A stretch of 64,000 nt of DNA from positions 1,054,001-1,118,000 of the forward strand of contig JBCAQO010000006.1 in the NCBI GenBank assembly GCA_039111635.1, in the 5' to 3' direction. The number at the start of each line of letters is the position of its first letter. Position 1 is the first letter of the stretch. This document shows, piece after piece, positions 6,236-52,969 of the stretch. A model generated the notes under the pieces. The model had not been told where the DNA came from. It searched no databases and saw nothing but the letters and a program-made list of their open reading frames with translations. The position numbers were made by a program, and so were the translations under genes. The DNA is from Heterobasidion occidentale (taxonomy: Eukaryota; Basidiomycota; Agaricomycetes; Russulales; Bondarzewiaceae).

Positions 6236-6621
6236 TACATTGGCGCTGTTCCCCATGTTCAGTGCACCTTGTCCAGAGGAACTGTATCATGCGTAACGGG
6301 TAACTGCACCTACGTGTTCTTCATGTCCTCGAAAATAAATGCATTTACTTCTCTAGAGAACAATCTTGTGGCTCACGACGATTGCAGCGGCTGAAGTACT
6401 TTTCAAATTGTAGAGATGTCTCCTCGTCGTATGGGATGATGTGGTCCACTAATATCTTCTGTGTGAGGTCATATGGGAGCATATGGGGCCGGGGTTGTGG
6501 GCTGTTGTGGGAGCCTTCTCCTTCGGTCACTGTGTGACGCACTTGCACACTACTTGCACTTCATCGATTCATCTACGACCCAGGCCATCCATTTACAAGA
6601 CAACTATCGTCAGACAAATTT
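6236..6621. other. Spacer between F-box copies 2 and 3
   Basis: AT-rich spacer with no recognised gene. It ends at the start codon of the third F-box copy. Confidence 0.4.
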
Positions 6622-27757: not shown

Positions 27758-28013
27758 TCTTTCTGTCGGGGTTCATGGCGAGCGCACTGACGCACGGACG
27801 GATGATACACCTTACTTACGGATGGATGGGGGCTTGAATTATTGCATTGTTATCCTACCACTCGCACTTTCCGTCACCGCATGAAACAATATAAGCATCG
27901 TTTTATAATCATCCACGACCCGGAGCAGGGATGGACACGGAGCATTCATTCCCGTAGATGGAGAGCGGAGAGCAAGAAACTAATTAAGCTGCGTAATAGT
28001 GGTAGTAGACCAC

Positions 28014-30944
28014 TCAGATATCGATCGGTGCCCCGTCCATGTCGTCGTCCATCGGCTCTCCGTCCACGTCACCCTCGTCCACCGGCGCGTGTTCAGCGAC
28101 GGGCTCCTCGACGAGAGGTTTGCCGTCGACATCGTCGTCGTCGATGGGCTGCCCGTCCACGTCGTCGTCCATCGGCTGTCCGTCGACATCGTCAGCCAGA
28201 GGCTCCCCGTCGACCTCGTCGCCCATCGGCTCCCCATCGACGTCCTCCCCTAGCGGCTGTCCGTCCACGTCGTCGTCCATCGGCTGCCCGTCCACGTCGT
28301 CGTCCATCGGCTGCCCGTCCACGTCGTCCACCGGCTCGCCGTCAATCCCGTCGCTCCCATCGTCCATCGCCTCGCCGTCCAGACCACCAGCCGCGCCCTC
28401 AGCCGCGGGAGCGGCGACCTGCGCGGCCTCGTCGGCCGGCCTGAACGAGCTGGCCTTGAACCGCGACGTGAACACCGGCACGCTCTCCTCCTCGACCTCG
28501 GGGGCCACGTCCTGAGCGGGTGTCGCCTCCCCCGCCTGCCCCTCGATGCGCTCGCGGAGCTCGGCGGTGAAGTCGGGCGGGAACACGATCCAGTCCTCCC
28601 AGATGTCGATGACGGCCGTGATTTGCTTCTTGAACATGTCGGCCGTGATGCGCCCGGGGAAGGAGTGGTAGATCGTGGAGAAGTGGTCGAAGACGAGGCC
28701 CAGGCGGCCCTGGAACTCTTGCCGGAATTTCCAGGCCATGGGCAAGGGGCGGCGGAGTTGTGCAGGATGTCGCATATCAGGTGGAGGCGCGCGAGCTTCC
28801 TTGGCACGGGAGTGCCGTCCACGACTAAGGATGCGATGATGATGTCTGAAATCTGCGTGTGTTGACGATCAGACCCAGGCCATTCAAAGCAGAGCAGAAC
28901 ATGGTAGGCTTGCCTCATTCGCAGCTTCGGCATGCTCTAGACTGAATGCCATGCACCGTGCCAACTCGCCTCTAGTTCCTGACAGAGACCGGAGCATAGC
29001 TTCGAACCGTTTACGAGCCAATTTCCCGAGCTTTGTCTTCCGTGTTCGCTCCCTTTCAGACTCCTCGGCAGAGTCTGTAGAGAACACGCTGTTATAGCCC
29101 TGAAGATACACACACACCTTCGTTTCAATACATCTGCGGAGCTGTCATGATGACATACCTCGTCATCAAACTCGCGTTCGAGGCTTCGGTCCCTATCCAC
29201 CAAGGACCTGTAGTACCTGTGCTTTCGATGCTGGATTTATACGTGTCAGTTTTGGAAGCTGCAGGGATGCCCCTGACCAACCTGATGATTTGTCAAAAAC
29301 GCATAACGTGCATTGCCCTTCTCCCTCTCTCGTAGAGTTTCTTCATATTTATCGTTATGCCCCTTCACTTCAGCAGCGACGGTGCGTATGAACATTACAG
29401 TCACGTCGTCATCGTCGCTGTGGGCCCTATCAGTGGGGGAGCGGTGCCGACGAGGGGAACGGCTGCGACGATCATAGCGGCCACGACTGTGCTGTCGGCG
29501 TCGATGTGGTGGAGAACGCGATCGACTTGGACTGTACGACCTACTGCGTGAACGTCGCGAGACATACCGGTCATGCGAGCGCGAGCGCGAACGAGGACGC
29601 CGAGCTGGACTGTGTTTTTCATGTTCCCTGGAGCGGGAGCGGGATCTGTGAACGACTGCGTGATATTAATTTAATGGGGAAGCCACATTCAGCTACTGTC
29701 CAGCAAAACTTACCATACATAGGTTTGGCCGCGATTGGGACGGCTTTACTCCAACCGACACGTAGAACCGAGCCGCCCCAGTCAAATCCGTCAAACTCCC
29801 GCAGGGCGGCTTCAGCATCCTTTCTTTTCATGAATGAGACAAAACCACTGAGCCCAGCATTCTTGGTACGACGGGTGGCCGTCATGTCCGCCCCGGGACC
29901 GTGACCGACGTCACCACGAGGCCACATCACTTTGACCTGTAACATGAATCAAAGTCAAAGGCGAGCCTTGAATCAAATAAGCCGATTGAAATACTCACCG
30001 AACCAACCGGTCCCGCACGCGCAAAAAATGTACCTAAGCTTTGTTCCGTGACGTGAGGGGGAAGATTGGCGACAAAAACATTAGATGTCTAAGACGGAAT
30101 GAGCATGAGACGTCGCAGTGAAGTATCTCTATCCAAACCTCGGGGTCTCCGCGATCCTTACTGCCACTTTGGCCTTCATATGCTATATAGCATGTCAGTC
30201 GTTTATCATGGGCGAGTTTTCTGCAGCGTACCAGCCATAGCTGTCGCAGACCTTGCGTGAGCTGCGAGTATTCATCAGAAAAAGACGAAGACATGGAGCA
30301 CAAGCACGAACCAGTCCGCGAAAATCGAGCTTCTCTTTCCGCCTGGTCTCTGTTCTCACGATGAGCACCACATGCTACGAGTTAGCCATTACAACAAACT
30401 TTTTGATTTCTTCCAGAAAGGCATCCATGGCGCGCTTGCCTTTGGGCTTGGGTGCTAAAGGAGGAGTAGGTGACTATAGTGTGGTCAACATGGTGTCAAC
30501 TTGACTTGCAATCCATCTTACCTCAGACATCTCCTCTAGCGGTCGCATGTTGCGAGAGGATCCTTCTGCCTTGGACTGCACCGAGGGCGTATAAGCAACC
30601 CCTGAATCTTTTGACGAACGAACGAATCCTGGCCCTGCTTGTTTTTTGGCTACAGCCTCGCCCTCGAAAGCGTCCAGAAATTCTGCGTATGCTCTGGCAG
30701 CATTCTCTTCCTCTTCCCTCTTCTTCGCATCAGCTGCCTCCTTCTCTTTCTCTCTCCGGGACTTTCGCACAGTACCCTGGGCATACTGCGACAATTTCTG
30801 ATCATCGACAGGTTTTTGCTGTTGCATGAGAACGGTTGGTGAGTGTGAACTGAGGAGAAATAAGTTCTATCCGTCGCACTGGGAACGAAGATTCATCTTC
30901 GTCTTTGTCAAAAAAGCGGCTAATTTGGACTTTGTTTTGTCCAT
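28014..30944 (-). CDS. U2 snRNP-associated protein SR140 (U2SURP-like), copy A
   Basis: Splicing factor of the SR140 family. The start MDKTKSKLAAF at 30944 is followed by a Lys/Glu-rich helix (EKEAADAKKREEEENAARAY) and AEFLDAFEGE. Then an RRM: ETSNVFVANLPPHVTEQSL, VKVMWPRGD, GLSGFVSFMKRKDAEAAL and VLRVGWSKAVP. Next an Arg/Ser-rich linker, a SURP-like part (FIRTVAAEVKGHNDKYEETL), and a CID domain (RGELARCMAFSLEHAEAANE, IASLVVDGTPVPRKLARL, FPGRITADMFKKQITAVIDIW). The protein ends in a strongly acidic tail of DDDVDGQPM-type repeats, stop at 28014. In this copy one G is missing near 28747 relative to copy B, which breaks the CID, and one T near 30911, which shifts the N-terminus. The repeat tail is intact here. 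The gene is convergent with vigilin. Combining copies gives an open gene, so the lesions are probably sequencing indels. Confidence 0.8.
28020..28370 (-). repeat. Acidic decapeptide-repeat tail of SR140
   Basis: Roughly eleven in-frame tandem units of about 10-11 codons with consensus D-D-D-V-D-G-(Q/E)-P-(M/L), with the DNA repeat visible as CATCGGCTGCCCGTCCACGT-like units. The same tract is at 43810-44150 in copy B. Confidence 0.85.
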
Positions 30945-31322
30945 GGTGTCCTGAAGAAGATCAAGGTACGAATGGTATTAGATATGTTGGTATGATGCCT
31001 TAAGGAGTAGAAAGTGCTCGAGTTTGGAGTGCTGTTAGGCTGTAGGTGGCTGTCGAACGCTGTCGAGTTAAGTGTCACATTGTTATCGAGTCACGTCACA
31101 TATAGTACCACTATGGTACCGTGTTCATTTTCCAAAAAACATACTCAGGGCAACGCTCTCTACTCGATATTGGCATCGACTAATGAGCGCCATCAAGACT
31201 ACAACAACGGAATTTGCCTCGTACACCATCAGAGCACAGAACGGCCTCCCAATACCTGATCATATTATATGATAAATCGTCCATCACTCCGATCCCGACT
31301 ATGATACAGACGAACAGGTCGA
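30945..31322. other. Short intergenic region between SR140 and PP5 (copy A)
   Basis: Lies 5' of SR140 and 3' of the phosphatase gene. No coding evidence. Divergence from copy B is higher than in neighbouring exons, including small indels. Confidence 0.4.
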
Positions 31323-33799
31323 CTACATCATCAGACCGGACAAGCCGCTTGATGCATAGGCCATCGGCTTCATTGCTGGGTGGGGTTGGGCTTCAAATTG
31401 GAAGTATTCCTGCGTGCCAGCGGAGTCGATGCGAATCTAACATGGAGTTGTTGAGTATCTTGAATCTTACTTGGATCCGCTCCAAAAAAAATAGCCTTAC
31501 GAATGCCCCTTTATTACCGGCCTGGTCCACATAATTCGGCGCAGAAAACACCTGTATTAGAAACGAGCAATGTTAAATACCAAGCGTAGAGAATTATGAT
31601 AAGATGGCATACAGTGGTGCACAGGCCGTTGTGCTCAATGGCATAACCATCTGAAGGGCCCGTAACGAATTAGATCTTGGATGTACAAGTCATGATTAAA
31701 TTCGCAGATGCCCACCTTGACGAACTTCATGACTCCGCAAAATGCCAGTGACACCATTCAACTCACACCATCTGCGTGTCACGTCTGGGCCAAAGGCAAT
31801 ACCAACACCCTTTTACACGATCAGGTCCTTGGATTTATGAATCGAAGTGCTTAAAAAAAGACATACCCGTTTGCTTGGCCCTCTACCAGGCGTTTCTTGT
31901 GGATCGGTCCATAGGAGCTATAATAGAATCGGTCAACACGCCCTCAACGGACCTTTGCTCAGACGCAGACCCGGACATACCTCGCCTAGATCCTCATGAG
32001 TATAAGGGGACATAAGCGAGTTGAAAGATCACATACACATCAACCCCTCTGTCCCTGGCTGACGTCCAATCCTCTCTATCTTACGAATCTCATCCAACGT
32101 AACACCATCTTTGCTGAAAAGACCGCCATGCACGACGAAGTATCGCTTGAGTCCTTCTGGAGACAAGATGGAACCTTGGGTTTTTCCGGTGGTCTTGTTG
32201 CAGAAATCAACGTCGCCAAAGGCACTACAAGAGTTTACTTTCTTAGTATAGATGGAACCGCGACTGATAAATGCTTGAACGACGCACTGGTTGTGAATAA
32301 ATGCGCGAAGAGCTGGCTGATGTCAGGACATAGATCTCTACATTTTGCAAACGAGAATTACCTTATAGGTCTGATCACCATGTTTATGCTTTGCCTCGCC
32401 CTCGAACCCATATGTTCGATTCATTTCTTTCGTCTCGTGATTGCCACGATTTATAAACATATTCTTTGGATATAGCCCTATCGCAGTCCCTTTAGCTTGG
32501 ATCAGCCAGATGTCATACACAAATGCTCTCACATTTGTAGGCTAAGGCGGTGAGGATAACCTCGATCGACCATGAGCCTCGATCGACAAGATCGCCATTC
32601 ATGAGCAAGCAATGCTTCTCAGATGGTGGTCCGGTCAAAGAATACAAGTATAGCATATCATAAAATTGGCCTACCCCAATGCATGAGCATGCGAACCCAG
32701 ATATTCTGTGTTTAGACGTACCATGCACATCACCGATGACATCGCAAGTCATTCCCTCCGAGAGGCAATTCTACTAGGCTTTGTTCTTTGATAAAAAGGG
32801 AGTGTGCTCCCAGGACGATCTCCCATACATATCGACGCGGAAGGGCCTTGCCGTCCTTGAACCACTGGATCATAGCCTGAACGAATTCCAGAGTTATCGT
32901 GTATTTCCCGTCTTCAGCCGTCTCCATTTTAGGCCCGTCGTATTTTTTGTCAAGATCGCAACCACCTATATGAGTGTAAAAGTGAGTTCCTGTATCGAGA
33001 TATCGTGGTGATACAAACCGTCTGCAATGATTTCAAGGCATCTCTCTACGGCTGACTGTTCTTCGCCTACCTCGATGGCCTGCGTTGAAAGGATTGAAGG
33101 ACAGAGACATCCAATATGCAATATGTAAGCTACCTTTTCAAATTCAATCTTTCGTAGAAGCTTCTGCGTTGATTCTAATTGCAGCTTGACTTGGTTATTG
33201 TGGGGCTCAAGCGCCATTACTTTCTTCAAGTCGGCCACGGCCAGCTGAGGTTTAAGAGTCTGTATGTGACATCGCTCGTCTATGATTGATAGTTGCTCGA
33301 AATCATGCTCGGAAAGATGCGATTTAGACCATACCTATAATAAGCTTTGGCATACTTGGGATTGAGTGCAATCGCCCTGCCTAGGAAGATCTTCTCAGTT
33401 CAATCATCATTGACTCTTTGAATGAAACACCTACTGGCATCTTGAAGAGCGTAGCCATGTTCTTCTATTTTCAACCGTGTGTATGCTCTGTTACAAAATA
33501 GCGTCGCATCCGTCGGGTTCTTCCCGATGGCCTCCGAGTATAGATGAGCCGCACGCGGGAAATCATGATCTACAGGATCAAACAAAATAAAGGAACCAAA
33601 AGCAGAGCACGTAGATTATGAACGGACCAATAAATGCCTTGTTAGCCTGCGCCTTCAATTTTGATGCCTCTTCCTTATCTACTTCTCCTGAAACCTCTTT
33701 CGTATCTAGGCTTAGTGTCGAAAGAGACGGCGATGGGATCGATGAGGGTGGAGTTGACTGTAATGGAGAGGAAGGAACAGATGATGAAGCGTCGCTCAT
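31323..33799 (-). CDS. Serine/threonine protein phosphatase 5 (Ppt1/PP5-like), copy A
   Basis: PPP-family phosphatase with an N-terminal TPR domain, which in this family docks on Hsp90 and restrains the catalytic site. The start [15 protein letters not shown] is followed by [10 protein letters not shown], a TPR helix [35 protein letters not shown] and [20 protein letters not shown]. The PP5 linker ([20 protein letters not shown]) comes next, then the metal-binding motifs [16 protein letters not shown] and NRGNHE, followed by the KIERI and SAPNY regions and [15 protein letters not shown] at the end. Many short introns separate these. In this copy two bases are missing near 32757, relative to copy B, just before [10 protein letters not shown], which shifts the frame. 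The N-terminal exon is intact here but broken in copy B. Confidence 0.82.
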
Positions 33800-34339
33800 G
33801 GTTCAAGATCAGTTAAAAGCTCGTTCTAAAGATGATTTGGAGAGCAAGGATCTCTGCTAGTACATTAGCAGACCGGAGTGATTGTCCACTGCATGCATAC
33901 CTTTGTCCGAAAGGGGAGAAAACAACGTGCTTGGGGATGATGATGAGATTTATGTACACGAGAGAGTACTTGTGGGAGGGTCCAATGAACGGATACTGTA
34001 GACTTGCGACCGTGCAGGAAGGGTAATGGTACTTACGTCACACAAAACTAGCGGATATTGGGTCTCAGTAGTGTCTCAGTGCTGTCCCAGCCCAAGCAAG
34101 CCTTCATGAAGCAACAAGATGGCAAACTCCCCTTGGTCAATGGACCGTTACCCATACATAAACAGTGTAGATTGCGAGAATGTTACAGGGCTACTCTTCA
34201 ATTGAGCCATACTAGAACCTTTAAATATAGCACCACAGGGTATAGTAGCTGAAATTAATCAAACTCGATGTACGACAACGGAAAAAACGAGCGCTATAGG
34301 AAAAGAGCGAAAAGACGTGCAATATCACATCGAGTGACT
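33800..34339. other. Intergenic region between PP5 and the GH23-like gene (copy A)
   Basis: 540 bp, AT-rich, no recognised gene. It should hold the PP5 promoter and the terminator of the GH23-like gene. Confidence 0.4.
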
Positions 34340-35588
34340 TTAGTCGCACTGGTCCAGGTTGAAGTACTTTCCAAGACGGGGCCTCATGGTGTACGCGTCT
34401 ACATTCTGCAACCAACCGTTGACAAATGGTGCAAGCTGCGACAAAAACAATCAGATAAAAATATTTGACTCAGAGGTGCCACTCACTAGTCCAGGTTGTT
34501 CTGGCATCTGCAGCACGATGTGGACGCGGCGGCAGTTGCCTGGCCCTGATATGTACAATGTATGAGCGCTTTTTTATATAAAAAGTTGGAGCACCACGTT
34601 GCTTACAAAAGTCAATTGCGCGGACCAGCCATTGTACTGACCGATGGTCTTCAAGACATCACCACCATTGCTATTCAGCGTATCAGAGAAAAACTGAGCG
34701 CCTGTGCGAATGTTGTAGTCCTGAGGGTTAAGGCATCAACAAATGTGAGTGAGTTTCCTGTAGGTCAGTCAACTTACGGGATCCTTGCAATTCCCGCCAG
34801 GCGCCGATCCACACTTGTCCTTGGTTATCTGCATTAAGCCCTGTTCACCAGCACCACCAACAGTGGCAGGATTACAACTACTCTCTTGCATGGCAAACGA
34901 AGCCAACATGATAGGCGGAACTATCCAATCAGGATTAGAGAACAAGACCCAAACAAGCGACAAAAATGTTCCTCACCATTAAATTCTCCACCATACTTCT
35001 CAAAGAGCCCCACATAATCGTTGCAGGCTTTGAAGGGGCTGCTCTTGTCCTTGATCGCAGTCGACAGGTCGGCAGCGATGAGGTCAGAAATACGGACGAA
35101 TGGAGGCCTCCAACCGCCATCGTTGATACCACAATTCAACCAGTCGATGTTACCGTTAGGGCCGCTGACAGCAGTGATGTCCTCTGCAAGTAAACTAGTG
35201 AGGGCCATCGACTAGGCATCACAACTTCCTTGGACTCACTCGTAGCACCGATGTCACCACACTTAGACTTGACGCTAATCAAGCCTGCGATAGCCCCTTT
35301 CACGCTGCTTTTGCTGTCATCAACATAGTTCGCGACAGGGGCCGACGCAGGCGCGGCTGCGACAGAAGTCGTCGGCGCCACATAAGTAGAGGTCGGGGGA
35401 TTGTTGGTTGTCGAAGTCGTGTGGGGGAAGGAGGAGGAGCTCTTTACTTTGCAACGCTTGCTGGATGAGCTTCCCCGACGGGCAATGTGGGCATGGCGAG
35501 CAGAATGAGAGCGTTCTTCGTGAACGTTGCTCGCCTCGACAACGGCAAGAGCGAGGGCGATAGTAACAAGGCCGGAGATGAGTTTCAT
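34340..35588 (-). CDS. Secreted lytic transglycosylase-like (SLT/GH23) protein, copy A
   Basis: A signal peptide (MKLISGLVTIALALAVVEA) is followed by a basic, Ser/Thr/Pro-rich linker. The first globular part has GDIGATEDITAVSGPNGNID and DWLNCGINDGGWRPPFVRIS. The SLT core is PPIMLASFAMQESSCNP (ES with the likely catalytic Glu), then GGAGEQGLMQITKDKCG and the DYNIRTGAQFFSDTL / TIGQYNGW segment that closes the active site in soluble lytic transglycosylases. The C-terminus carries a CCRC cluster. Enzymes of this fold cleave peptidoglycan between MurNAc and GlcNAc. A fungal secreted copy points to action on bacteria, or to a repurposed use on chitin-like substrates; this is inference. Near 34425 one base is missing relative to copy B, so the last exon is out of frame here. 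Confidence 0.75.
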
Positions 35589-35839
35589 GATACAGTAACG
35601 AATGTGGGTTCCGCCTTGGGAGTAGTATCGAGTCTGAAGGTGCAAAGAAAGGCTCAGCAACGTGGGGTGCTGATTTTATGGGAAAGACGCTTACCCAGAA
35701 GCACTCTTAGCGTTGGCGACGTGGAGTAAAATGCGTGGATATATCCTGATATATCACGTTTACAGTAAAAAAATACCAAGCAGGTCACAGCTGCCAAGCG
35801 ATCCAATCAATTCATTCAGAACTTTAGGCTAGCACTTAC

Positions 35840-38824
35840 CTTTTTTGGCAACCGACCGATCACCGTCCAAGCATGCGGAAATTATTTTCTTTTTCTCAAT
35901 GGTCTCTCCGATGAACGGTTCGTCATCGAAGCTCGCAAGCATGAAGCTCAATTCAACCTCGCGTCAAAGCGATGGCGAAGGACGGCGCTCATAGTTTCGT
36001 CCTCGATCAGTAAGATAAGCTCATCGATGCCTCCTGGCACCGGACATTGCCTCAAATATCCCCTGGGGATATCCGTGGTATATTAGGAATATACCACGAA
36101 TATACCACGAATATCCCCAGACCCCCCCTCGGTACATTCGTGGTATATCTGAGGTAAAGTCACAAATCCCTCGAATATCCCCAGGGGATATTCGAGGCAG
36201 GGTATATCCACGGTATATTCACGGTATATTCACGGTATATTCACAGTATATTGTTGGTTTATTAGAGCTCAATATTGATCATTTACCGCTTTGAAAGCAC
36301 CATATAGATACACATAAAAATATTTAAATATCAGTAAAATACAATAAAGCCATTGGAGGCTATACAAGGATCCCAAAGGTGAAACACGACAATCCACAAA
36401 ACATTCTGCCTAGAAGGCGCCGGTGCAAACAGGGCACCCCACCGCCCTCACCCCGCTTATTCCTCCTTAGCTCAAAACACACACCGCGAGATGTTATCTA
36501 TCAGTACCAAGGGTCACAACCCAACGAGAAAGAAGAGCACGTACCAGGCAGCCCGAGGAGCTCTTCGTACAGCTGCCTGGGCTTGACGGCGCCGAAGAAC
36601 CAGGGCACCTGTTCGAGGTAATAAGCGCAGAGTTCCGAGGCGCGGGGCCAGGGTGGGAGATAGGCTTCGAGGGCGTATTGAGGGAGGCAAATCGACGCGT
36701 CTGAGAACGCGTGGGAGATCTCCTGGGATGTAGGGGAGGTTGGAGGGTGAGCCCGCGCTGGTGACGGCCGTGGATGGCCGTGAGGGGCCATGGTTGGGGC
36801 TTTCCGGTAATTCATTCTCACCCTGTTCAAAGTTGGCATTGAGAGCAAGTGGACAGAGGAGGGAAATCTGCACTTACCAGGAGCAGCGACTGCATAACGA
36901 TGAGGTCGCATGGTCAGCACTTACTTGAGGAAAGGGGTAGCTGTGAGAGCATCAACGACGCACCCTGCCGATCGGCCATAGAACGTCGAGCCGCCATCGT
37001 CATGCAGCGCGAGCGTCCCAAGAATATCGAGTGTCGTGCTCTCGTCGGCCTCCTCACATGTTTTTTTGGCCTCTGGACGATCCAAGTCTTGCACCGCGTC
37101 GCCTCCGGCCGCAAGATGGAGGACTTAATCGACTTGATCTTCATGAGGTCATGGCGCAAGAGCGGGTGCTGCTCGCGGGTGACGTGAAAGTGCGAGAGCA
37201 CGAGGGCGTCCTCCAGCTGGTAGATGCGGTCGGACATGTCTGTTATTTGGAGTGCAGGCGGTCGGTGTCGGCGAGGATGAATCTGGGCAGCGTGGATGAT
37301 AGGGGTTGGTGGGAGGGGCCCGGGAGGATAGACAAGGGCTGCTCACCGTGTGCCTTAGCCTGTGACGAGGATGCCTGTAAAGAGAAATGTCAATGAGAGA
37401 CTGGCGACGAGCGACGATAATGAGCGAAATATATGCACCAAAAAAGAATATCATACGACGAGCGCGAGCCCTGTTTCCGAGCCCAACACCCTGCCACCAG
37501 CAATCGGGATCCGTACACACGTCTCCTGTCGCCCCCGCCCCCACCCTTCCCTCCCCCTTCCGCCCCCCCAGCACTGGTGTTCGACGCATCGTCGGACGCA
37601 TATACTGTTTTTTGAGGCCCATCTTAAGAAATAACATTTCAACATCAGAAGGGGAACAGAGGATCCAAGGGACACGTTTGGAGAGGAAGAAAAAACTTGC
37701 CAAGGCCCGTCCATGCGTTATCTTGGTGTCGGTATTGCGCGTCAAATTTGTTCCTCGTGTCCTGCTGTCTAGATTTGGCCGGTTTCTCTCGAGCTCGGGT
37801 CGCATGTGTCCTCCTTGTCATTGTTGTTGGAAGGGAAGCTGTATGTGTATCTGTTTGTTGGTGCTCGAGGTGTCGATGGACGGTGCAATGGTGCTGGTGG
37901 AGGTGGAGAGGTTACATGCAATAGGGAGTCGATAGAAGGAGGACGACTTGAAAGAAATTCGACGACGCGCATACATCACGTGGCCGTGGAGGTGGATGAG
38001 TCATCCCTCAACGTGTTGCGACTGGGGGATATTAGGGGTATTTCCCTGCGAGGGATATTCGCGGTATATTCGTGGTATATTCCCAATATACCATGGATAT
38101 CCCCTGGGGATATTTGGGGGCAATGTCCGGTGTGGGCTTGTCTGCTGATAGTCTGCTGATACCTAGCTCACCTGTCGCAAAGCGTGTATTTCTCTGAACG
38201 ATGATTTTGACTCTCATGACGGTCAATCGTTATGATCCTGACGGGAGCCGTCGTACTGCCGTCGTTGGCGAGGTGGCAATCAGGGCACGGCGTCTTCTGC
38301 CCGTTTTGCCAATGAATATCGGGTAGTGAAGGACGAGGCCGTTTGAGTCTCACCGAGTTTGCTATGCGAGCTTTCAAAGTTCCTACCCAGACTCTGTCCT
38401 CGTCTGTGTCATCTTCAACGTACTTTCATATCGAATATAACTCACCTACCTTCCAAACGCATGTGCTCCACCCACCTGAAGCGCCCCAGCTGATTCACAT
38501 CACGCATAATCAAAATTATGATGCTAGAAAGTATTAGATATACATGTCTTTTCGCTTCATCGCTGTAGACCAATGCATGCCTGACTGCCCAGACGTCGAT
38601 GCTTGAAGTGAAGGGAACACAACCAAAAAAGTTATGGTTAGGATTCCGCAGCACTGACTGGTCCTGTCTACTCCCACGTTCTTCCTGTCCTGGCACATCA
38701 CTTGCACCAATCCGCTACCAGCCGCTACCGTTCCTTATAGTCGTTGTACCGTCGCGAGTTGTGCTTGGGGCGGATAGGTACCTTTGTAAATGGTTGACGG
38801 CAACACTGCGCTCAAACTGATCAC
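35840..38824 (-). CDS. Unidentified spliced gene, copy A, with a transposon inside an intron
   Basis: Tentative gene just 5' of the GH23-like gene, same strand. Exon-like pieces flanked by GT-AG signals: QFERSVAVNHLQ (about 38780-38816), LGRFRWVEHMRLEG, TLKARIANS, then TPCPDCHLANDGSTTAPVRI ... KYTLCD (to about 38170, donor GTGAGC), and after the next intron IDELILLIEDETMSAVLRHR and ASFDDEPFIGETIEKKKIIS ending at the GTAAGT donor at 35839. The last two pieces lie in different frames, so a slip or missed intron exists. No family recognised. The CPDC pair might bind metal. The 2.1-kb mobile element sits in the intron between KYTLCD and IDELIL. The uninterrupted version is in copy B. Confidence 0.35.
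36038..36118 (+). repeat. Left terminal inverted repeat
   Basis: Matches the reverse complement of 38052-38132 apart from a few substitutions and a small indel after the first 14 bases. It contains the palindrome ATATCCCCTGGGGATAT. Confidence 0.9.
36078..36253. repeat. Left subterminal 11-bp repeats
   Basis: Two short arrays of an 11-bp unit: CGAATATACCA-type (about 36090-36117) and, in the opposite orientation, CACGGTATATT-type, four units at about 36209-36253. Such arrays are usual transposase-binding sites in CACTA-class elements. Confidence 0.75.
36545..37374 (-). pseudogene. Captured fragment of a Zn2Cys6-type fungal transcription-factor gene
   Basis: Inside the transposon, reading on the minus strand, is a series typical of basidiomycete binuclear-cluster regulators just downstream of the zinc cluster: SSSQAKAH, RFILADTDRLHSK, MSDRIYQLEDALVLSHFHVT, HPLLRHDLMKIKS, LGTLALHDDGGSTFYGRSAG and, at the start of the fungal regulatory domain, YALEAYLPPWPRASELCAYY, LEQVPWFFGAVKPRQLYEELL. 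Intron signals of the donor gene remain (GTGAGC...CCCAG between the first two pieces; GTAAGT near 36930; GTACGT right after the last piece), so capture was at DNA level. One base is missing near 37246 (a TAA arises where ...SKITDMSDR is expected) and another frame change lies in the poly-A of the ...KK... stretch near 37065. Neither a zinc cluster nor the rest of the regulatory domain was found. Confidence 0.8.
38052..38132 (-). repeat. Right terminal inverted repeat
   Basis: Inverted partner of 36038-36118, with two to three 11-bp GGTATATTCG-type units in its inner half. It ends ...CAATGTCCGGTG before the TGG duplication. Confidence 0.9.
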
Positions 38825-39248
38825 ATCGTCTGGTAGCTTTCTCTCTTTCATGTGTCAGAAATCTCACGAACCGAGTCGCAACATGCAATAGATGTTACGT
38901 CGTATGGATGCATTGTATTCTGTCGAATTCATGTTGAAATCTCTCAGGGAAATCCGTGTCCAAAACTTATACGCAGGCCAGATGTATTCTGATGCAGTTC
39001 CACACGACTGTTTTCGTGATAAATTGTTGTGAGTCACAATTCTACTCCTACTCTACTATGAAACGACGTTACGAATCCTATAGGAGATTTTGATAGGTCA
39101 ACTATCTTCGAGCATCAGTATGCAAAATATTCAACGTTGAGATCTTGGAGACTTAGAGAGACCACTGAGAGACCATCTTACTGATTCAAACATGGGCCGT
39201 ATAGGCAACTGCTGATGAATTGACGAAAATCGAAATGAACTCCCTTCA
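38825..39248. other. AT-rich region up to the gap, copy A
   Basis: Collinear with about 52501-52921 in copy B. It probably contains the 5' part of the unidentified minus-strand gene and the start of the region upstream of ACR3. The sequence stops at the gap before the ACR3 start codon. Confidence 0.4.
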
Positions 39249-39348
39249 NNNNNNNNNNNNNNNNNNNNNNNNNNNNNNNNNNNNNNNNNNNNNNNNNNNN
39301 NNNNNNNNNNNNNNNNNNNNNNNNNNNNNNNNNNNNNNNNNNNNNNNN
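39249..39348. other. Assembly gap, exactly 100 N
   Basis: A run of 100 N, the usual placeholder for a gap of unknown size between scaffolded contigs. Both copies of the duplicated block abut it. Confidence 0.99.
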
Positions 39349-42300
39349 CCCGCCTCCGTCAACAAGCCTGCCGCACCCGCATGGGGCAGCCCCGTCGGCC
39401 CCCGCATCAAGCCCGCGACCGTCCATCCCAACCAGGTCACCGAGTCCTTCACCCTCTCCTCCATCGACCTCTCCACCTCCGGCAAGGACGGCAAACCGGC
39501 TACCCTCGGTGAGATCATGAAGCAGGTCATGACAAAGTTCAAGGTCAAGATCGAGGCATCCACAAACCAGAAGACTCGCCAGACCACCTTCCACCTCAAG
39601 GCAGACTCGAACAAGGACCTCGAGAAAGGAAAGAGGTCCCTCCTTTCCCTCCTCAGCCCCACCGTGAGTCCTCCCCCTCTCCCCTTTCCGTCCACCGCGC
39701 CACATATATTTTCTTCCCGCCCCTAGGTCTCTCTGGTCATAAATGCCCCGGCCTCGACCATCGCGTCCATCATCGGCGTCAAAGGTGATGCTGTCCTTCT
39801 GCCTCCCTCAAGTCTCGTGCTCACCCACCCCATCCCCATCGCAGGTGCTACGCTCAAGCAGATCCGTGACCAGACCAACGTCAGGGTGGACATCCCCCCC
39901 AAGGATTCCCTCTCGGTCCCCAACGGAAACGGTCACCCCAACGGCTCCCCCCGCGGCACCACTCCCGTCCCCGACGACGAAGAGGAAGAGCCCACCATCC
40001 CGATCACCATCACCGGCCCCCAGCCCTTCGCGATAGAGGCCCAAGAGCTCATCAAGGACATCGTTGCGTCAAAGGCTGCAAAAAAGACCTTGCGCGTCCG
40101 CGACATCCCCTCTCACATCGTCCCCTTCATCAAGGCCCGCCGCTCCGTCTTCATTGATGCAGCCCACGGAGCCGACGTGCAGCTCACCCTCAGCAGCGCC
40201 GACCGCGAGCTCACCGCGGTCGGCGATCGCGACGCCGTCCTCCGTGTCATCGACGCTGTCAAGGCTACCGTCGACGCGTTCTCCTCCGGCCTCACTCCCA
40301 TCAAGATCACGCTTCCCAAGCGTCAGCACCGCCTGCTCGTCGGCAAGGCCGTCGACGAGATCATGGCGTCGAGCAGGTGCTCCGTCGTCGTGCCCCAGCC
40401 AGAGGAATCCAGCGAGGAAGTCACCGTCTGGGGCAAGGACGAGGACGTCGCGGGCGGCCTTTCGGCCGTCATGGCAAAGGCGAACTCGCAGTACATCCAC
40501 GAGTTCCCCTCCCTGGACCCGCCGCGCTCTCCAAGCAGCTCCTCACCTACATGACCGTCACCGGCTACCCCGAGACCCTCGCCGCCGCCCACCCCGGCGT
40601 GTCGGTCTTCACGCCCAGCCCGGCCATGCGGGAGCGCGCGAGCGTGCTCAACATCGAGATCATCGGCGAGAAGCCCATCGTGGACGGCGCCGTGCGACAA
40701 GTGTCGACGTTGATCGGCAAGCTCATCGGCGCCACCAAGGATGTCCCTGTCGACTGGCTCGTGCACAGGATCGTTCAGGCTAAGCACGCCAGGAAGTGCG
40801 CGCGTCTTTCTCCCTCGCAGACGGTCTATTGATGTCGTCTGAACAGGATCAAGCAGTTCCACGAGAACCACAACGTGCTCCTCTTCTTCCCTCCCGAGGC
40901 CGCCGAGCAGTCGTCCGTCCTCCTGGTGTACGACCCGACCTCGCCCTCCGCGTCCCCGTCTCCCGTCGAAAAGGCGAAGCACATCGACAACGTCGAGAAG
41001 GAGCTGCTCCAGTTTGCCAAGGACGCCGCGGACGTCAAGAGCGCGACCATCACCGTCGAAAAGAAATGGCACAGCGCCGTCATCGGCCAGGGCGGCACCA
41101 CTCTCAACGCGTGCGCCCCTTTTCTCTTATGTGGTCTCGCTTCTGCGAATTGACGGTGGAATTGTTGCAGCATCATCGGCGACGAGAACGCCCTCTCCAT
41201 CAAGATCGGTGCCGAGGTTGGGGACGCGTCCACCGAGGACGTCGTCCTCGTCCGCGGCGCCAGCAGCGAGGTCGACCGCGCCGTCAAAGAGATTCAAGAG
41301 ATCGTCGAGAACGCGAAGAACGACCTGATCCTCAGCGGCTACGTACGTCCCCTCGCCCATTTTCTCTCTCGCCCCGCACCGAATCGCGTTCACAGTCCGT
41401 CGAGTTCGAGATCGACCGCGAGTTCGTCGGCAGGATCGTTGGCTCGCAGGGCGCGGGCGTGAACAAGCTGCGCGACCAGCTCGGCGTCAAGGTCGACTTT
41501 TCGGACGAGGTCGACGAGAAGCAGCAGGACAGCTGGAAGAAGAAGAACACCAAGGCTGCCGCGCATTCCAAGTCGAAGGTCACCATCGTCGGGCGCAAGG
41601 AGAACGTCGAGGAGGCCAAGCGGCGCATCCTGACTCAGGTCGAGAGGCTGGTGCGTCGCGCTCGTCGACGTTGGCGTGTTGCGCGTGTTGCTGATCGTCT
41701 TGCCAGGCGGACGAGACGTCCGAGGTGCTCAAGATCGCGAGTCAGTATCACTCCGGACTCATTGGCGAAAAGGGCAAGTACGTCTTGCGGTTGGAGGAGA
41801 AGTACTCCGTCAAGATCACCTTCCCGCGCGAGTCGGCCGATAACGGCGAGGGCCGGACTCGCGAGCACCTCAAGGCCGACGAGGTCCTCGTCAAGGGCGG
41901 CCGCAAGGGCGTCGCGGGCGCCAAGTCGGAGCTGCTCGACGTAAGAATCCTCGCCCCTCGCTCGTGAGCCCGGCACGCTCACCGCCTAGACTCTTTGCAG
42001 GCCGTCGAGTTCGAGAAGGAATCCAACAACGTCATCAAGTTCACCGTCCCCGCGCGCGCGATCCCCCGCATCCTCGGCAAGGGCGGCGCCACGATCAACG
42101 AGATCAAGGACGAGACCGGCGCGCAGATCGACCTCGACAAGACGACGCCCGAGGCCGAGAGCGCGCAGATCACCTGCCACGGGACGAAGAAGGCCGTCGC
42201 CGCCGCCAAGGCCGCCATCCAGGCGATCGCGGACCAGGTCGGCGAGGAGACGACCGTCGTGCTCACCGTCGAGAACAGGTTCCACCGCGCGCTCATCGGC

Positions 42301-43547
42301 GCGGGCGGCCAGGTCCTCAAGGACCTCATCAGCCGCTGCGGCGGCCCCACCGACACCCGCGCGCAGGCGGGCTTGGTCCGGTTGTGAGTGCCCATCATCG
42401 CCCTTTGTCTCGCGGCGTGCGCTAAGCCTCTCGTTCGGTCGTACAGCCCGCGGTCGGGCGATGAGCCCAAGGACGAGGTGCGCCTGCGCGGCGACCCGAA
42501 GATCGTCGCCAAGCTCAAGGCCGAGCTCGAGAAGGCCGTCGGCGAGCTGCGCGACCGCGTCGTGCTCGCGGTCGACATCCCCGCGCCGCAGCACCGCGCG
42601 CTCATCGGCCGCGGCGGGCAGAACCTGACCGAGTTCCAGACCAAGTTCGCCGTGCAGGTGCAGTACCCCGGTTCGCGCTCGTACGGCCAGGCGGGCCCCC
42701 CGGAGAACGCGGACGCGCTCGCGGCCGTCGCACCGGAGAACGTCGTCAAGGTGTCCGGCGCGCGCGCCGCCGTCGAGGCGGCCATCGAGAACCTCAAGGT
42801 GCGTTCCCGCCGTGCTCGCGCTCGCGCCCGCTCTCTCGCGCTCACGCCCGTCCGCTGCTGCAGTCCCAGATCAAGGCGCCCGCGCCCGAGGCGCTCGTCG
42901 AGACCGTGGCCGTGCCCCTCAAGTACCACCACGCGGTCACGCAGCAGGGCAACTTCTTCCGCACCCTGCGCACGTACGGCGTCCAGGTCGAGCAGTCGGC
43001 CCACCCCCAAAAATCCGCCGTCCCGGTCCGCCCCGAGCCCGACGCGGACGCCGCCGCGCCGTCCACGCGCATCGACGACGCCGACGACGAGCCCGCCGCC
43101 GCAGCCGCCGCAGCGGGCGCGCAGTGGGAGGTCGTGCCGAACTACCAGGACGCGGAGGAGGGCGAGTCCACGTGGACGCTCAAGGCGCGCGACCGCGCGG
43201 CGCTCGAGCGCGCGCGGCAGGCGATCGACGACGCGCTCGTGCGCGCGCGCGGGATGAGCCACGTCGGCTTCCTCACGCTGCCGGACCGCGCGAGCTTCCC
43301 GCGCATCGTCGGCGCGAAGGGCTCGAACATCGCGCGCCTGCACGGCGAGACGGGCGCGGACATCACCGTCGGGCGGGAAAACAACACGATCGTCATCATG
43401 GGTGCGTGTCTCGCTTTGCGTCGCCCGTGTGTGCGCGGGTGCTGATGGTGGCGCTGCAATGCAGGTTCAGAGTCGTCGATCGTGGCGGCCAAGGACGCCA
43501 TCCTCAAGACGGCTGCGGACACCGGCCGCCGCGGGCGCAACTACTGA
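39349..43547 (+). CDS. Vigilin/Scp160-like multi-KH protein, copy B, 5' truncated by the gap
   Basis: Begins in mid-exon at the position equal to 23573 of copy A, so the first part of the gene is absent. The KH modules and GxxG loops are as in copy A (IIGVKG to IVGAKG) and the gene ends AADTGRRGRNY at 43547. The frame slip between YIHEFP and LPGPAALSKQLL recurs at about 40507, identical to copy A. Unlike copy A, the last KH domain is in frame (DITVGRENNTIVIMG). An Ala run near 43096-43113 is four codons longer, and VRARGMSHV replaces AARGGMSHV near 43240. Both are ordinary allelic-type changes. Confidence 0.85.
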
Positions 43548-43803
43548 TCTTTCTGTCGGGGTTCATGGCGAGCGCACTGACGCACGGACGGATGATACAC
43601 CTTACTTACGGATGGATGGGGGCTTGAATTATTGCATTGTTATCCTACCACTCGCACTTTCCGTCACCGCATGAAACAATATAAGCATCGTTTTATAATC
43701 ATCCACGACCCGGAGCAGGGATGGACACGGAGCATTCATTCCCGTAGATGGAGAGCGGAGAGCAAGAAACTAATTAAGCTGCGTAATAGTGGTAGTAGAC
43801 CAC

Positions 43804-46736
43804 TCAGATATCGATCGGTGCCCCGTCCATGTCGTCGTCCATCGGCTCTCCGTCCACGTCACCCTCGTCCACCGGCGCGTGTTCAGCGACGGGCTCCTCG
43901 ACGAGAGGTTTGCCGTCGACATCGTCGTCGTCGATGGGCTGCCCGTCCACGTCGTCGTCCATCGGCTGTCCGTCGACATCGTCAGCCAGAGGCTCCCCGT
44001 CGACCTCGTCGCCCATCGGCTCCCCATCGACGTCCTCCCTAGCGGCTGTCCGTCCACGTCGTCGTCCATCGGCTGCCCGTCCACGTCGTCGTCCATCGGC
44101 TGCCCGTCCACGTCGTCCACCGGCTCGCCGTCAATCCCGTCGCTCCCATCGTCCATCGCCTCGCCGTCCAGACCACCAGCCGCGCCCTCAGCCGCGGGAG
44201 CGGCGACCTGCGCGGCCTCGTCGGCCGGCCTGAACGAGCTGGCCTTGAACCGCGACGTGAACACCGGCACGCTCTCCTCCTCGACCTCGGGGGCCACGTC
44301 CTGAGCGGGTGTCGCCTCCCCCGCCTGCCCCTCGATGCGCTCGCGGAGCTCGGCGGTGAAGTCGGGCGGGAACACGATCCAGTCCTCCCAGATGTCGATG
44401 ACGGCCGTGATTTGCTTCTTGAACATGTCGGCCGTGATGCGCCCGGGGAAGGAGTGGTAGATCGTGGAGAAGTGGTCGAAGACGAGGCCCAGGCGGCCCT
44501 GGAACTCTTGCCGGAATTTCCAGGCCATGGGCAAGGGGGCGGCGGAGTTGTGCAGGATGTCGCATATCAGGTGGAGGCGCGCGAGCTTCCTTGGCACGGG
44601 AGTGCCGTCCACGACTAAGGATGCGATGATGATGTCTGAAATCTGCGTGTGTTGACGATCAGACCCAGGCCATTCAAAGCAGAGCAGAACATGGTAGGCT
44701 TGCCTCATTCGCAGCTTCGGCATGCTCTAGACTGAATGCCATGCACCGTGCCAACTCGCCTCTAGTTCCTGACAGAGACCGGAGCATAGCTTCGAACCGT
44801 TTACGAGCCAATTTCCCGAGCTTTGTCTTCCGTGTTCGCTCCCTTTCAGACTCCTCGGCAGAGTCTGTAGAGAACACGCTGTTATAGCCCTGAAGATACA
44901 CACACACCTTCGTTTCAATACATCTGCGGAGCTGTCACGATGACATACCTCGTCATCAAACTCGCGTTCGAGGCTTCGGTCCCTATCCACCAAGGACCTG
45001 TAGTACCTGTGCTTTCGATGCTGGATTTATACGTGTCAGTTTTGGAAGCTGCAGGGATGCCCGCCTGACCAACCTGATGATTTGTCAAAAACGCATAACG
45101 TGCATTGCCCTTCTCCCTCTCTCGTAGAGTTTCTTCATATTTATCGTTATGCCCCTTCACTTCAGCAGCGACGGTGCGTATGAACATTACAGTCACGTCG
45201 TCATCGTCGCTGTGGGCCCTATCAGTGGGGGAGCGGTGCCGACGAGGGGAACGGCTGCGACGATCATAGCGGCCACGACTGTGCTGTCGGCGTCGATGTG
45301 GTGGAGAACGCGATCGACTTGGACTGTACGACCTACTGCGTGAACGTCGCGAGACATACCGGTCATGCGAGCGCGAGCGCGAACGAGGACGCCGAGCTGG
45401 ACTGTGTTTTTCATGTTCCCTGGAGCGGGAGCGGGATCTGTGAACGACTGCGTGATATTAATTTAATGGGGAAGCCACATTCAGCTACTGTCCAGCAAAA
45501 CTTACCATACATAGGTTTGGCCGCGATTGGGACGGCTTTACTCCAACCGACACGTAGAACCGAGCCGCCCCAGTCAAATCCGTCAAACTCCCGCAGGGCG
45601 GCTTCAGCATCCTTTCTTTTCATGAATGAGACAAAACCACTGAGCCCAGCATTCTTGGTACGACGGGTGGCCGTCATGTCCGCCCCGGGACCGTGACCGA
45701 CGTCACCACGAGGCCACATCACTTTGACCTGTAACATGAATCAAAGTCAAAGGCGAGCCTTGAATAAATAAGCCGATTGAAATACTCACCGAACCAACCG
45801 GTCCCGCACGCGCAAAAAATGTACCTAAGCTTTGTTCCGTGACGTGAGGGGGAAGATTGGCGACAAAAACATTAGATGTCTAAGACGGAATGAGCATGAG
45901 ACGTCGCAGTGAAGTATCTCTATCCAAACCTCGGGGTCTCCGCGATCCTTACTGCCACTTTGGCCTTCATATGCTATATAGCATGTCAGTCGTTTATCAT
46001 GGGCGAGTTTTCTGCAGCGTACCAGCCATAGCTGTCGCAGACCTTGCGTGAGCTGCGAGTATTCATCAGAAAAAGACGAAGACATGGAGCACAAGCACGA
46101 ACCAGTCCGCGAAAATCGAGCTTCTCTTTCCGCCTGGTCTCTGTTCTCACGATGAGCACCACATGCTACGAGTTAGCCATTACAACAAACTTTTTGATTT
46201 CTTCCAGAAAGGCATCCATGGCGCGCTTGCCTTTGGGCTTGGGTGCTAAAGGAGGAGTAGGTGACTATAGTGTGGTCAACATGGTGTCAACTTGACTTGC
46301 AATCCATCTTACCTCAGACATCTCCTCTAGCGGTCGCATGTTGCGAGAGGATCCTTCTGCCTTGGACTGCACCGAGGGCGTATAAGCAACCCCTGAATCT
46401 TTTGACGAACGAACGAATCCTGGCCCTGCTTGTTTTTTGGCTACAGCCTCGCCCTCGAAAGCGTCCAGAAATTCTGCGTATGCTCTGGCAGCATTCTCTT
46501 CCTCTTCCCTCTTCTTCGCATCAGCTGCCTCCTTCTCTTTCTCTCTCCGGGACTTTCGCACAGTACCCTGGGCATACTGCGACAATTTCTGATCATCGAC
46601 AGGTTTTTGCTGTTGCATGAGAACGGTTGGTGAGTGTGAACTGAGGAGAAATAAGTTCTATCCGTCGCACTGGGAACGAAGATTCATCTTCGTCTTTGTC
46701 AAAAAAAGCGGCTAATTTGGACTTTGTTTTGTCCAT
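43804..46736 (-). CDS. U2 snRNP-associated protein SR140 (U2SURP-like), copy B
   Basis: Same domain order as the copy at 28014-30944: coiled N-terminus, RRM, RS linker, SURP-like region, CID, acidic repeat tail. Here the start reads MDKTKSKLAAFFDKDEDESS, longer in frame than in copy A, and the CID is uninterrupted (HNSAAPLPMAWKFRQEFQGR). One C is missing near 44039 inside the repeat tail, so the last units are out of frame. Since each copy is open where the other is broken, the true gene is very probably intact. Confidence 0.8.
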
Positions 46737-47111
46737 GGTGTCCTGAAGAAGATCAAGGTACGAATGGTATTAGATATGTTGGTATGATGCCTTCAGGAGT
46801 AGAAAGTGCTCGAGTTTGGAGTGCTGTTAGGCTGTAGGCGGCTGTAGATCGCTGTCGAGTTAGTTGTCACATTGTTATCGAGTCACGTCACATATAGTAC
46901 CACTATGGTACCGTTTCATTTTCCAAAAAACATACTCAGGGCAACGCTCTCTACTCGATATTGGCATCGACTAATGAGCGCCATCAAGACAACAACGGAA
47001 TTTGCCTCGTACACCATCAGAGCACAGAACGGCCTCCCCAATACCTGATCATATTATATGATAAATCGTCCACCATCCCGATCCCGACTATGATACAGAC
47101 GAACAGGTCGA
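46737..47111. other. Intergenic region between SR140 and PP5 (copy B)
   Basis: Counterpart of 30945-31322, with several small indels between the copies. No gene seen. Confidence 0.4.
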
Positions 47112-49577: not shown

Positions 49578-50116
49578 GGTTCAAGATCAGTTAAAAGCTC
49601 GTTCTAAAGATGATTTGAGAGCAAGGATCTCTGCTAGTACATTAGCAGACCGGAGAGATTGTCCACTGCAAGCATACCTTTAGTCCGAAAGGGGAGAAAA
49701 CAACGTGCTTGGGGATGATGATGAGATTTATGTACACGAGAGAGTACTTGTGGGAGGGTCCAATGAACGGATACTGTAGACTTGCGACCGTGCAGGAAGG
49801 GTAATGGTACTTACGTCACACAAAACTAGCGGATATTGGGTCTCAGTAGTGTCTCAGTGCTGTCCCAGCCAAGCAAGCCTTCATGAAGCAACAAGATGGG
49901 CAAACTCCCCTTGGTCAATGGACGTTACCCATACATAAACAGTGTAGATTGCGAGAATGTTACAGGGCTACTCTTCAATTGAGCCATACTAGAACCTTTA
50001 AATATAGCACCACAGGGTATAGTAGCTGAAATTAATCAAACTCGATGTACGACAACGGAAAAAACGAGCGCTATAGGAAAAGAGCGAAAAGACGTGCAAT
50101 ATCACATCGAGTGACT
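49578..50116. other. Intergenic region between PP5 and the GH23-like gene (copy B)
   Basis: Counterpart of 33800-34339. No gene seen. Confidence 0.4.
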
Positions 50117-51364: not shown

Positions 51365-51615
51365 GATACAGTAACGAATGTGGGTTCCGCCTTGGGAGTA
51401 GTATCGAGTCTGAAGGTGCAAAGAAAGGCTCAGCAACGTGGGGTGCTGATTTTATGGGAAAGACGCTTACCCAGAAGCACTCTTAGCGTTGGCGACGTGG
51501 AGTAAAATGCGTGGATATATCCTGATATATCACGTTTACAGTAAAAAAATACCAAGCAGGTCACAGCTGCCAAGCGATCCAATCAATTCATTCAGAACTT
51601 TAAGCTAGCACTTAC

Positions 51616-52500
51616 CTTTTTTGGCAACCGACCGATCACCGTCCAAGCATGCGGAAATTATTTTCTTTTTCTCAATGGTCTCTCCGATGAACGGTTCGTC
51701 ATCGAAGCTCGCAAGCATGAAGCTCAATTCAACCTCGCGTCAAAGCGATGGCGAAGGACGGCGCTCATAGTTTCGTCCTCGATCAGTAAGATAAGCTCAT
51801 CGATGCCTCCTGGGCTTGTCTGCTGGTAGTCTGCTGATACCTAGCTCACCTGTCGCAAAGCGTGTATTTCTCTGAACGATGATTTTGACTCTCACGACGG
51901 TCAATCGTTATGATCCTGACGGGAGCCGTCGTACTGCCGTCGTTGGCGAGGTGGCAATCAGGGCACGGCGTCTTCTGCCCGTTTTGCCAATGAATATCGG
52001 GTAGTGAAGGACGAGGCCGTTTGAGTCTCACCGAGTTTGCTATGCGAGCTTTCAAAGTTCCTACCCAGACTCTGTCCTCGTCTGTGTCAACTTCAACGTA
52101 CTTTCATATCGAATATAACCCACCTACCTTCCAAACGCATGTGCTCCACCCACCTGAAGCGCCCCAGCTGATTCACATCACGCATAAACAAAATTATGAT
52201 GCTAGAAAGTATTAGATGTACATGTCTTTTCGCTTCATCGCTGTAGACCATGCATGCCTGACTGCCCAGACGTCGATGCTTGAAGTGAAGGGAACACAAC
52301 CAAAAAAGTTATGGTTAGGATTCCGCAGCACTGACTGGTCCTGTCTACTCCCACGTTCTTCCTGTCCTGGCACATCACTTGCACCAATCCGCTACCAGCC
52401 GCTACCGTTCCTTATAGTCGTTGTACCGTCGCGAGTTGTGCTTGGGGCGGATAGGTACCTTTGTAAATGGTTGACGGCAACACTGCGCTCAAACTGATCA
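51616..52500 (-). CDS. Unidentified spliced gene, copy B, without the transposon
   Basis: Counterpart of the interrupted gene in copy A. Here the intron between ...KYTLCD and IDELILLIEDETMSAV is about 60 nt (GTGAGC...CCCAG, about 51845-51790), the normal size in this genome. The frame change after RHRFDA, before ASFDDEPFIGETIE, is present here too. The 5' exons above 52460 are unclear; a start further upstream, to about 52620, is possible. Product unknown. Confidence 0.4.
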
Positions 52501-52969
52501 CATCGTCTGGTAGCTTTATCTCTTTCATGTGTCAGAAATCTCACGAACCGAGTCGCAACATGCAATAGATGTTACGTCGTATGGATGCATTGTATTCTGT
52601 CGAATTCATGTTGAAATCTCTCAGGGAAATCCGTGTCCAAACTTATACACAGGCCAGATGTATTCTGATGCAGTTCCACACGTCTGTTTTCGTGATAAAT
52701 TGTTGTGAGTCACAATTCTACTCCTACTCTACTATGAAACGACGTTACGATCCTTATAGGAGATTTTGATAGGTCAACTATCTTCGAGCATCAGTATGCA
52801 AAATATTCAACGTTGAGATCTTGAGACTTAGAGAGACCACTGAGAGACCATCTTACTGATTCAAACATGGGCCGTATAAGGCAACTGCTGAATTTGACGA
52901 AAATCGAAATGAACTCCCTTCTTAATGAGCAAGTGAGTTATTTTGCTTTCCTTGCGGCTCTCATCCATC

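Follow-up and report, generated by a model that had tools for sequence, protein, structure and literature searches.

A likely CACTA-type transposon carrying an intron-retaining fragment of a Zn2Cys6 regulator gene in the basidiomycete Heterobasidion occidentale

A 64,000-nucleotide stretch of the Heterobasidion occidentale genome (assembly GCA_039111635.1, contig JBCAQO010000006.1, positions 1,054,001 to 1,118,000; hereafter the window) carries a 2095-bp element with terminal inverted repeats (TIRs) and target-site duplications (TSDs), in the middle of which lies part of a gene for a Zn2Cys6 transcription factor (TF). The element is best read as non-autonomous and likely of CACTA type, with ends derived from 7.5-7.7-kb Transposase_21 relatives, a middle derived from a host Zn2Cys6 gene and likely movement in trans, a reading whose probability is put at about 0.92. 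Movement in trans is suggested by the TIRs shared with the relatives, by the TSDs and by the empty sites. Host gene DNA lies between the TIRs, a transposase is absent from the element itself, and its ends are common to elements that do have a predicted transposase gene (L046 and L047, also L048 and L058; Table 1). This is the Pack-TYPE organization that an earlier note, made from the sequence of the window alone, had proposed; further copies, relatives with a predicted transposase gene and a donor gene have now all been found.

Ends and classification of the element

Inverted ends of about 80 bp and flanking TGG triplets had been described in the earlier note, and both are borne out. The two TIR arms (80 and 81 bp) are 92.6% identical over 81 columns (E=3e-26), and their inverted match scores 116 bits, whereas 50 mononucleotide shuffles of the element reach 33.7 at most. 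When the left TIR was used as an 80-bp query against the assembly, it gave at least 54 matching stretches, a count of stretches and not of elements, partial and inner ones included.

CACTA elements, the Pack-CACTAs of plants included, generate 3-bp TSDs. Such duplications were found in nine of the 12 family elements that were read at both ends (TGG, TAG, CTA, CAA, CGT, TCG, CTT, CAT and TAG), with no target consensus; L044, L047 and L050 have none. The length of the duplication rules out membership of the MULE and hAT groups, whose TSDs measure 9 and 8 bp, respectively. The observed triplets are not of the TWA type of PIF/Harbinger, and Helitrons, which have neither TIR nor TSD, are ruled out by the presence of both. 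Subterminal repeats, a further character of CACTA/EnSpm elements, occur here as TATATTC-type motifs in direct and inverted orientation within 250 bp of the left end. The TIR starts with CACCGG, and the end motif is not strict outside plants, the TIRs of animal elements starting with CCC in the passages of PMC1636069 that treat them; the element is therefore termed CACTA-type and not canonical CACTA.

Table 1. Features of the window and related elements in the assembly
Feature	Location	Strand	Basis or remarks
Non-autonomous Pack-CACTA-like element, 2095 bp	36038..38132	.	TIRs, TSD, empty site, six copies
Left TSD, TGG	36035..36037	.	end reading
Left TIR, begins CACCGGACATTG	36038..36117	+	self-alignment
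Subterminal repeats, TATATTCACGG-type, direct and inverted	36118..36250	.	sequence reading
Element end from larger relative	36038..36559	.	matches L046 8016-7481, 75%; outermost 80 bp 99%
Captured Zn2Cys6 gene fragment	36555..37569	-	87% to L054 4077-5116 (well-aligned part)
Captured 5' part of donor exon 6, YLPPWPRASELC	36555..36822	-	alignment, Pfam; cut before Fungal_trans match
Captured donor exon 5, 12 nt	36878..36889	-	alignment to donor; both splice sites intact
Captured donor exon 4, RFILADTDRLHSK...	36964..37282	-	alignment to donor; 1-nt deletions, 7-nt deletion at end
Captured donor exon 3, 28 nt	37347..37374	-	alignment to donor; CAA to TAA stop
Element end from larger relative	37570..38132	.	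matches L046 1084-401, 76-86%
Right TIR	38052..38132	-	self-alignment
Right TSD, TGG	38133..38135	.	end reading
100-N assembly gap between overlapping copies	39249..39348	.	sequence
Empty site, single TGG, second copy of region	51811..51813	.	alignment
Larger relative L046, 7616 bp	contig C8		TSD TCG
Larger relative L047, 7711 bp	contig C2		no TSD
Larger relative L048, 7635 bp	contig C2		TSD CTT, final TIR base changed
More distant relative L058	contig C4		with transposase match
Non-autonomous relative L049	contig C62		TSD CAT
Non-autonomous relative L050	contig C8		no TSD
Non-autonomous relatives, L052 group	C1; further full or partial copies on C8, C2, C7		TSD TAG

Copies and empty sites

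The assembly that was searched comprises 45,052,067 bases in 159 contigs. The interior of the element (36252-37960) gave 22 matches, repeat counts being lower bounds; six of the matches listed, including the window copy, are near full-length at 97-100% identity. The search for other loci with both TIRs, which the earlier note had recommended, was thus productive, as all six copies share both ends. Five of them are flanked by TSDs (TGG in the window, TAG, CTA, CAA and CGT). Kimura two-parameter (K2P) distances between them range from 0.006 to 0.013 in 15 pairwise comparisons over about 2.07 kb; since this is similar to the divergence between two haplotypes, the spread of these copies looks recent.

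Sites without insertion were sought with the joined flanks of seven elements (five copies with the TF fragment, L046 and L048), and the best 40 of 81 candidates were considered. Among these, continuous matches at 98-100% were obtained for two of the seven: L045, at C2 (100%, 299 bases) and C64 (98%), with a further match at C12 (85%), and L046, at C11 (100%, 300 bases), with two more at 77%. As they were found more than once, these empty sites are likely paralogous and not allelic.

The insertion in the window has an empty site of its own. The surrounding region is present in two copies (23573-39247 and 39349-52921), 98.9% identical over 12.5 kb, and the second has no insert and the single TGG that had been reported earlier. 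The 1-kb flanks of the empty site compare with those of the insert-bearing copy at 993 identical positions with seven mismatches on one side and 986 with 12 on the other. The first copy stops and the second starts at opposite edges of exactly 100 N, as in a dovetail overlap of two contigs, and boundaries flush with such a gap are more in keeping with two haplotypes joined one after the other than with a genuine tandem duplication. Haplotig-like contig pairs also occur elsewhere in the assembly (C131/C10, 97% over 5.3 kb; C116/C2, 99.8% over 2.5 kb). The insert-free copy is therefore likely the other allele, a status deduced from this layout. That it is instead one unit of a true tandem duplication, as the presence of both copies in the same scaffold could suggest, is very improbable given the coincidence of both boundaries with the gap edges and the other haplotig-like contigs; such a duplication would remove only the allelic claim.

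Larger relatives with a transposase gene

The earlier note had also called for a transposase-bearing partner, and four larger elements with matching ends hold a predicted transposase gene: L046, L047, L048 and the more distant L058. Both ends of the window element are collinear with L046, and their identity to L047 is 76-88%. Where the left end and the captured piece meet, they have a few bases in common. The right end aligns with sequence that begins before the predicted transposase gene and runs into it, save for about 100 bp around the start codon, which the element lacks.

The gene model of L046 has six GT-AG introns of 52-69 nt, counted from the second exon on, and one further first intron that was read by eye. 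Its 876-residue product matches PF02992 (Transposase_21, tnp2) at E=1.6e-6 and finds matches in L047, L048 and L058 (tblastn). Of 7995 candidates scored, 34 proteins are homologous to it, and PF02992 is present on nine of the 34. Pfam searches with seven single stop-to-stop open reading frames (ORFs) of L046 returned no transposase family; PF02992 was seen below the cut-off in single ORFs of L048 (E=2.4e-4) and L046 (E=0.14). The Transposase_21 protein expected of CACTA/EnSpm elements thus appears to be encoded, with a marginal score and consistent homologues. Moreover, a second set of conserved reading frames in the L046-type elements converges on the transposase gene from the opposite end. 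Apart from the terminal motif CACCG, these relatives are built like a CACTA-type element.

The surroundings of L047 (C2:1930833-1939673) show a separate rearrangement. A segment of 268 bp at 463-730 recurs at 8442-8709 with 100% identity, giving the order 1.3-kb relative, 268 bp, 7.7-kb element, 268 bp, that is, a local duplication with two family members.

The captured fragment and its donor gene

The interior had been described as lacking a transposase, and it indeed matches an intron-containing Zn2Cys6 gene instead. Among the 22 interior matches, the captured part is found only on C10 (L054) and its haplotig C131, at 87%, introns included; the remaining matches are ends of family elements. 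The search for a donor proposed in the earlier note was thereby answered. The modelled donor protein contains a Fungal_trans domain (81.6 bits) and a Zn_clus match of 19.9 bits, under the cut-off of 21. It has 767 homologues at E up to 0.001 (7991 candidates scored); the best of those listed are from Artomyces (71%) and Auriscalpium (69%), which is indicative of Russulales.

The gene sense of the fragment is on the minus strand of the window. The fragment starts in the last part of donor intron 2, spans exons 3, 4 and 5 and includes part of exon 6. Introns 3-5 are kept together with their splice sites, so that the captured material, to judge by this alignment, is genomic DNA and not a transcript. 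The zinc cluster is absent. The start of the regulatory domain, thought at first to be included, appears to be absent as well: in the modelled donor protein, the fragment reaches to about residue 277, and the Fungal_trans match begins at residue 292. The distance between fragment and donor is 0.135-0.148 (K2P, aligned part) over the six copies.

On the C131 haplotype, a related TIR end (L055 4664-4746) is located upstream of the donor regulator gene, a position at which C10 lacks such an end; the adjoining sequence suggests a 3-bp duplication, CGT, judged from one end.

Decay of the fragment

The stop codon in exon 3 is common to all six copies, as is a deletion where exon 4 ends, which measures 7 nt in the window copy; the fragment is therefore no longer coding. 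Other frameshifts differ among the copies; for example, a 2-nt deletion in the exon 6 part occurs only in the window copy. Of the initial proposal that the element encodes part of the protein with its introns, the introns stand, and a coding function is ruled out by the stop and frameshifts in every copy.

The direction of change was examined with 60 of 120 orthologues listed among the 767 homologues. The orthologues agree with the donor at 19 of the 21 listed residue differences and with the element at two; one of the 21 is the stop, and one, the next-to-last codon, falls beyond the junction and does not represent a substitution. CpG transitions are similarly one-sided, with 19 sites lost in the element versus two in the donor in exons, and nine versus four in introns. 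These patterns suggest that decay followed capture and that much of it preceded the recent spread.

Proposed origin and alternatives

Under the proposed origin, about 6.4 kb inside a parent of the 7.6-kb type would have been lost and replaced by genomic DNA of the Zn2Cys6 gene, the filling likely taking place through template switching during break repair. At one junction, donor and element end have three bases (CTC) in common, which might fit template switching but could be due to chance; the other junction shows no clear match. The captured piece, now non-coding, would then have decayed, in large measure through CpG transitions. One decayed copy would recently have spread to six places, recognised through its ends and moved in trans by the transposase of the larger relatives.

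Several findings weigh against this reconstruction. The CACTA/CACTG end motif of CACTA/EnSpm elements is absent, and the PF02992 score of the L046 model (27.9 bits) lies below the cut-off of 28.6. One copy with the TF fragment, L044 on C2, has no TSD. Among the best 40 of 81 candidates, the joined flanks of L041, L042 and L044 gave no continuous match, and those of L043 and L048 gave just repeats across the junction at 73-81%. Outside the left TIR, the larger relatives are at most about 75-88% identical to the element ends, so that the direct parent is not among them. Finally, comparison of the six copies with the donor gives a ratio of nonsynonymous to synonymous change (pN/pS) of 0.21-0.23 for the fragment (25 nonsynonymous and 38 synonymous differences in the window copy, the codon past the junction counted), lower than a simple model of capture from the donor gene followed by neutral change predicts; CpG bias at third positions may explain this.

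The low pN/pS is also the main argument for an origin of the fragment from a diverged functional homologue, either a gene of another species or a lost paralogue, with the element arriving or spreading later. The divergence of 13-15% from the donor would agree with this, the donor alleles being less than 1% apart in the captured part. Yet the polarised differences, with orthologues siding with the donor at 19 of 21 positions as expected for decay after capture, weaken a pN/pS of 0.22 as a sign of a foreign donor. The one-sided CpG decay argues in the same direction, no closer gene is present among the 22 interior matches, and no listed homologue exceeds 71%. This alternative is retained as a rival, although an unlikely one. 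About as unlikely is the joint movement of two neighbouring family elements with the DNA between them, the tandem-insertion model proposed for plant Pack-CACTAs in the sections of PMC8903248 that deal with their origin. Family members do lie close together, L046 and L050 being about 2 kb apart on C8 and the 1.3-kb relative 268 bp from L047. Against this model, no inner TIR remnants were seen at the two junctions, each end is collinear with one end of a larger element for more than 500 bp, and the CTC match fits template switching, with the reservation about chance made above. The introns in the fragment would also be expected if a remnant of a host gene had inverted ends by chance, or if a Helitron had made the capture. 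The probability of either is close to negligible given 80-bp TIRs far above shuffled sequences, 3-bp TSDs, six copies and ends shared with transposase-bearing relatives.

Other captures within the family

Capture of the Zn2Cys6 gene within a CACTA-type element does not seem to be an isolated event. The non-autonomous relatives L049, L050 and the L052 group have in common pieces of about 100-190 bp that are 81-83% identical to a gene at C10:2261744/2162033. The C10:2261744 gene has nine homologues, four of them named, from other Agaricomycetes; its model gave no match in a Pfam search. A further match of L049 and L050, at 72-82%, falls inside an MFS-like ORF (C3:1052573); as the Pfam score of this ORF (24.1) is under the cut-off of 33.4, it is counted only as a probable further captured gene. 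These pieces suggest that the family took up host DNA more than once, with one more gene well supported and a third probable, and gene capture looks like a repeated habit of this transposon family.

Two other loci matching parts of L049/L050, C8:1365169 and C10:1922080, are not included among the captured genes; their neighbours are related TIRs or unidentified ORFs. The edges of L072/L073 (C10:1922080 and 1897131), which match part of L050 at 75%, carry near-identical ORFs (KDAIAKRHSLMEHSGCE...), that is, locally repeated genes.

Predicted transcription and silencing

Read in the sense of the transposase gene, the element consists of the upstream stretch, a remnant of exon 1 without the start codon (about 100 bp missing), a remnant of exon 2 and the captured fragment, itself in sense. 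The first splice donor of the remnant is GC and not GT in all six copies. The retained end at 37570-38132 is predicted to contain the promoter of the transposase gene, directed towards the fragment, and the opposite end presumably keeps the stretch upstream of the second, converging gene of the larger element. With the fragment in sense behind a presumed promoter, transcription on one or both strands is predicted. A chimeric transcript would result, and double-stranded RNA as well should transcription also begin at the opposite end. Twelve stretches of at least 21 bases are identical between element and donor. It is conceivable, if improbable, that the element is a natural silencing cassette, in which the presumed promoters of the two converging genes of the larger relatives face inward on either side of a fragment of a conserved regulator gene, the transposase start codon being absent, and yield double-stranded RNA directed against the donor. 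In that case the donor regulator could be tuned by RNA interference from six young copies, of which one is likely heterozygous.

Relation to known gene-capturing transposons

Gene capture by TIR transposons has been studied mostly in plants and recently in animals; Pack-CACTA elements are reportedly a subject of Catoni et al. 2019. The element shares with the Pack-CACTAs of Arabidopsis and maize its non-autonomous nature, CACTA-type ends, a host gene fragment and several copies; moreover, in both, some relatives hold pieces of more than one locus (PMC8903248). It differs in its fungal host and its terminal motif CACCG, and in that a single assembly contains the donor, transposase-bearing relatives and a likely haplotype without the insert. 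Pack-TIRs of animals likewise have a gene fragment between TIRs, a multicopy form and short junction microhomology, but were described in animal genomes (PMC8277862). The stem 'fung' does not occur in the main text of the former paper, nor the word 'fungi' in that of the latter.

In fungi, transduplication of histone H3 by hAT elements has been described in Pyrenophora tritici-repentis and Pseudocercospora fijiensis, in addition to a Tc1/mariner case (PMC3538342, PMC6710886). There too, TIR transposons carry and multiply host genes. In P. fijiensis, the histone copy is intron-free and lies in a hAT element mutated by repeat-induced point mutation (RIP), whereas the present case concerns intron-keeping genomic DNA in a CACTA-type element of a basidiomycete (PMC6710886). 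Gene-capturing Helitrons of the basidiomycete Pleurotus ostreatus (PMC4289320) also contain captured gene pieces, but the element described here has TIRs and a TSD. Fungal CACTA elements belong to the same Transposase_21 transposon family; in the parts of PMC1636069 drawn on, gene capture is not seen among them. In another fungal paper, 'Pack-CACTA' occurs in the reference list only, as far as its accessible text goes (PMC10853768). No fungal Pack-CACTA was found in titles and abstract openings of mostly open-access literature, which is no proof of absence.

A fungal case had been expected to be unusual. As a statement on rarity this does not hold, the ascomycete hAT and Tc1/mariner captures being in print (PMC3538342, PMC6710886); what looks new, within the literature covered, is that a basidiomycete shows a CACTA-type capture with retained introns for which the donor, a candidate mover and an empty site could all be identified. 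Since one assembly contains the product of capture together with its donor, a candidate mover and a likely haplotype without the insert, it becomes possible to test in one strain how capture takes place and whether captured fragments give rise to RNA against their donor.

Neighbourhood of the insertion

Rfam and tRNA scans of the 64-kb window gave no match. The insert sits 449 bp upstream of the predicted start codon of an ORF on the minus strand (35136-35588). This ORF has a signal-peptide-like start, judged by eye, and gave no match in a Pfam search; the insert-free copy could reveal an effect on its promoter. Short internal repeats, about 72% alike, are present in both copies of the region (28021-28381 and 43811-44170). 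Farther away in the window, 3256-7764 contains three diverged direct copies of about 1 kb each that are 67-69% identical.

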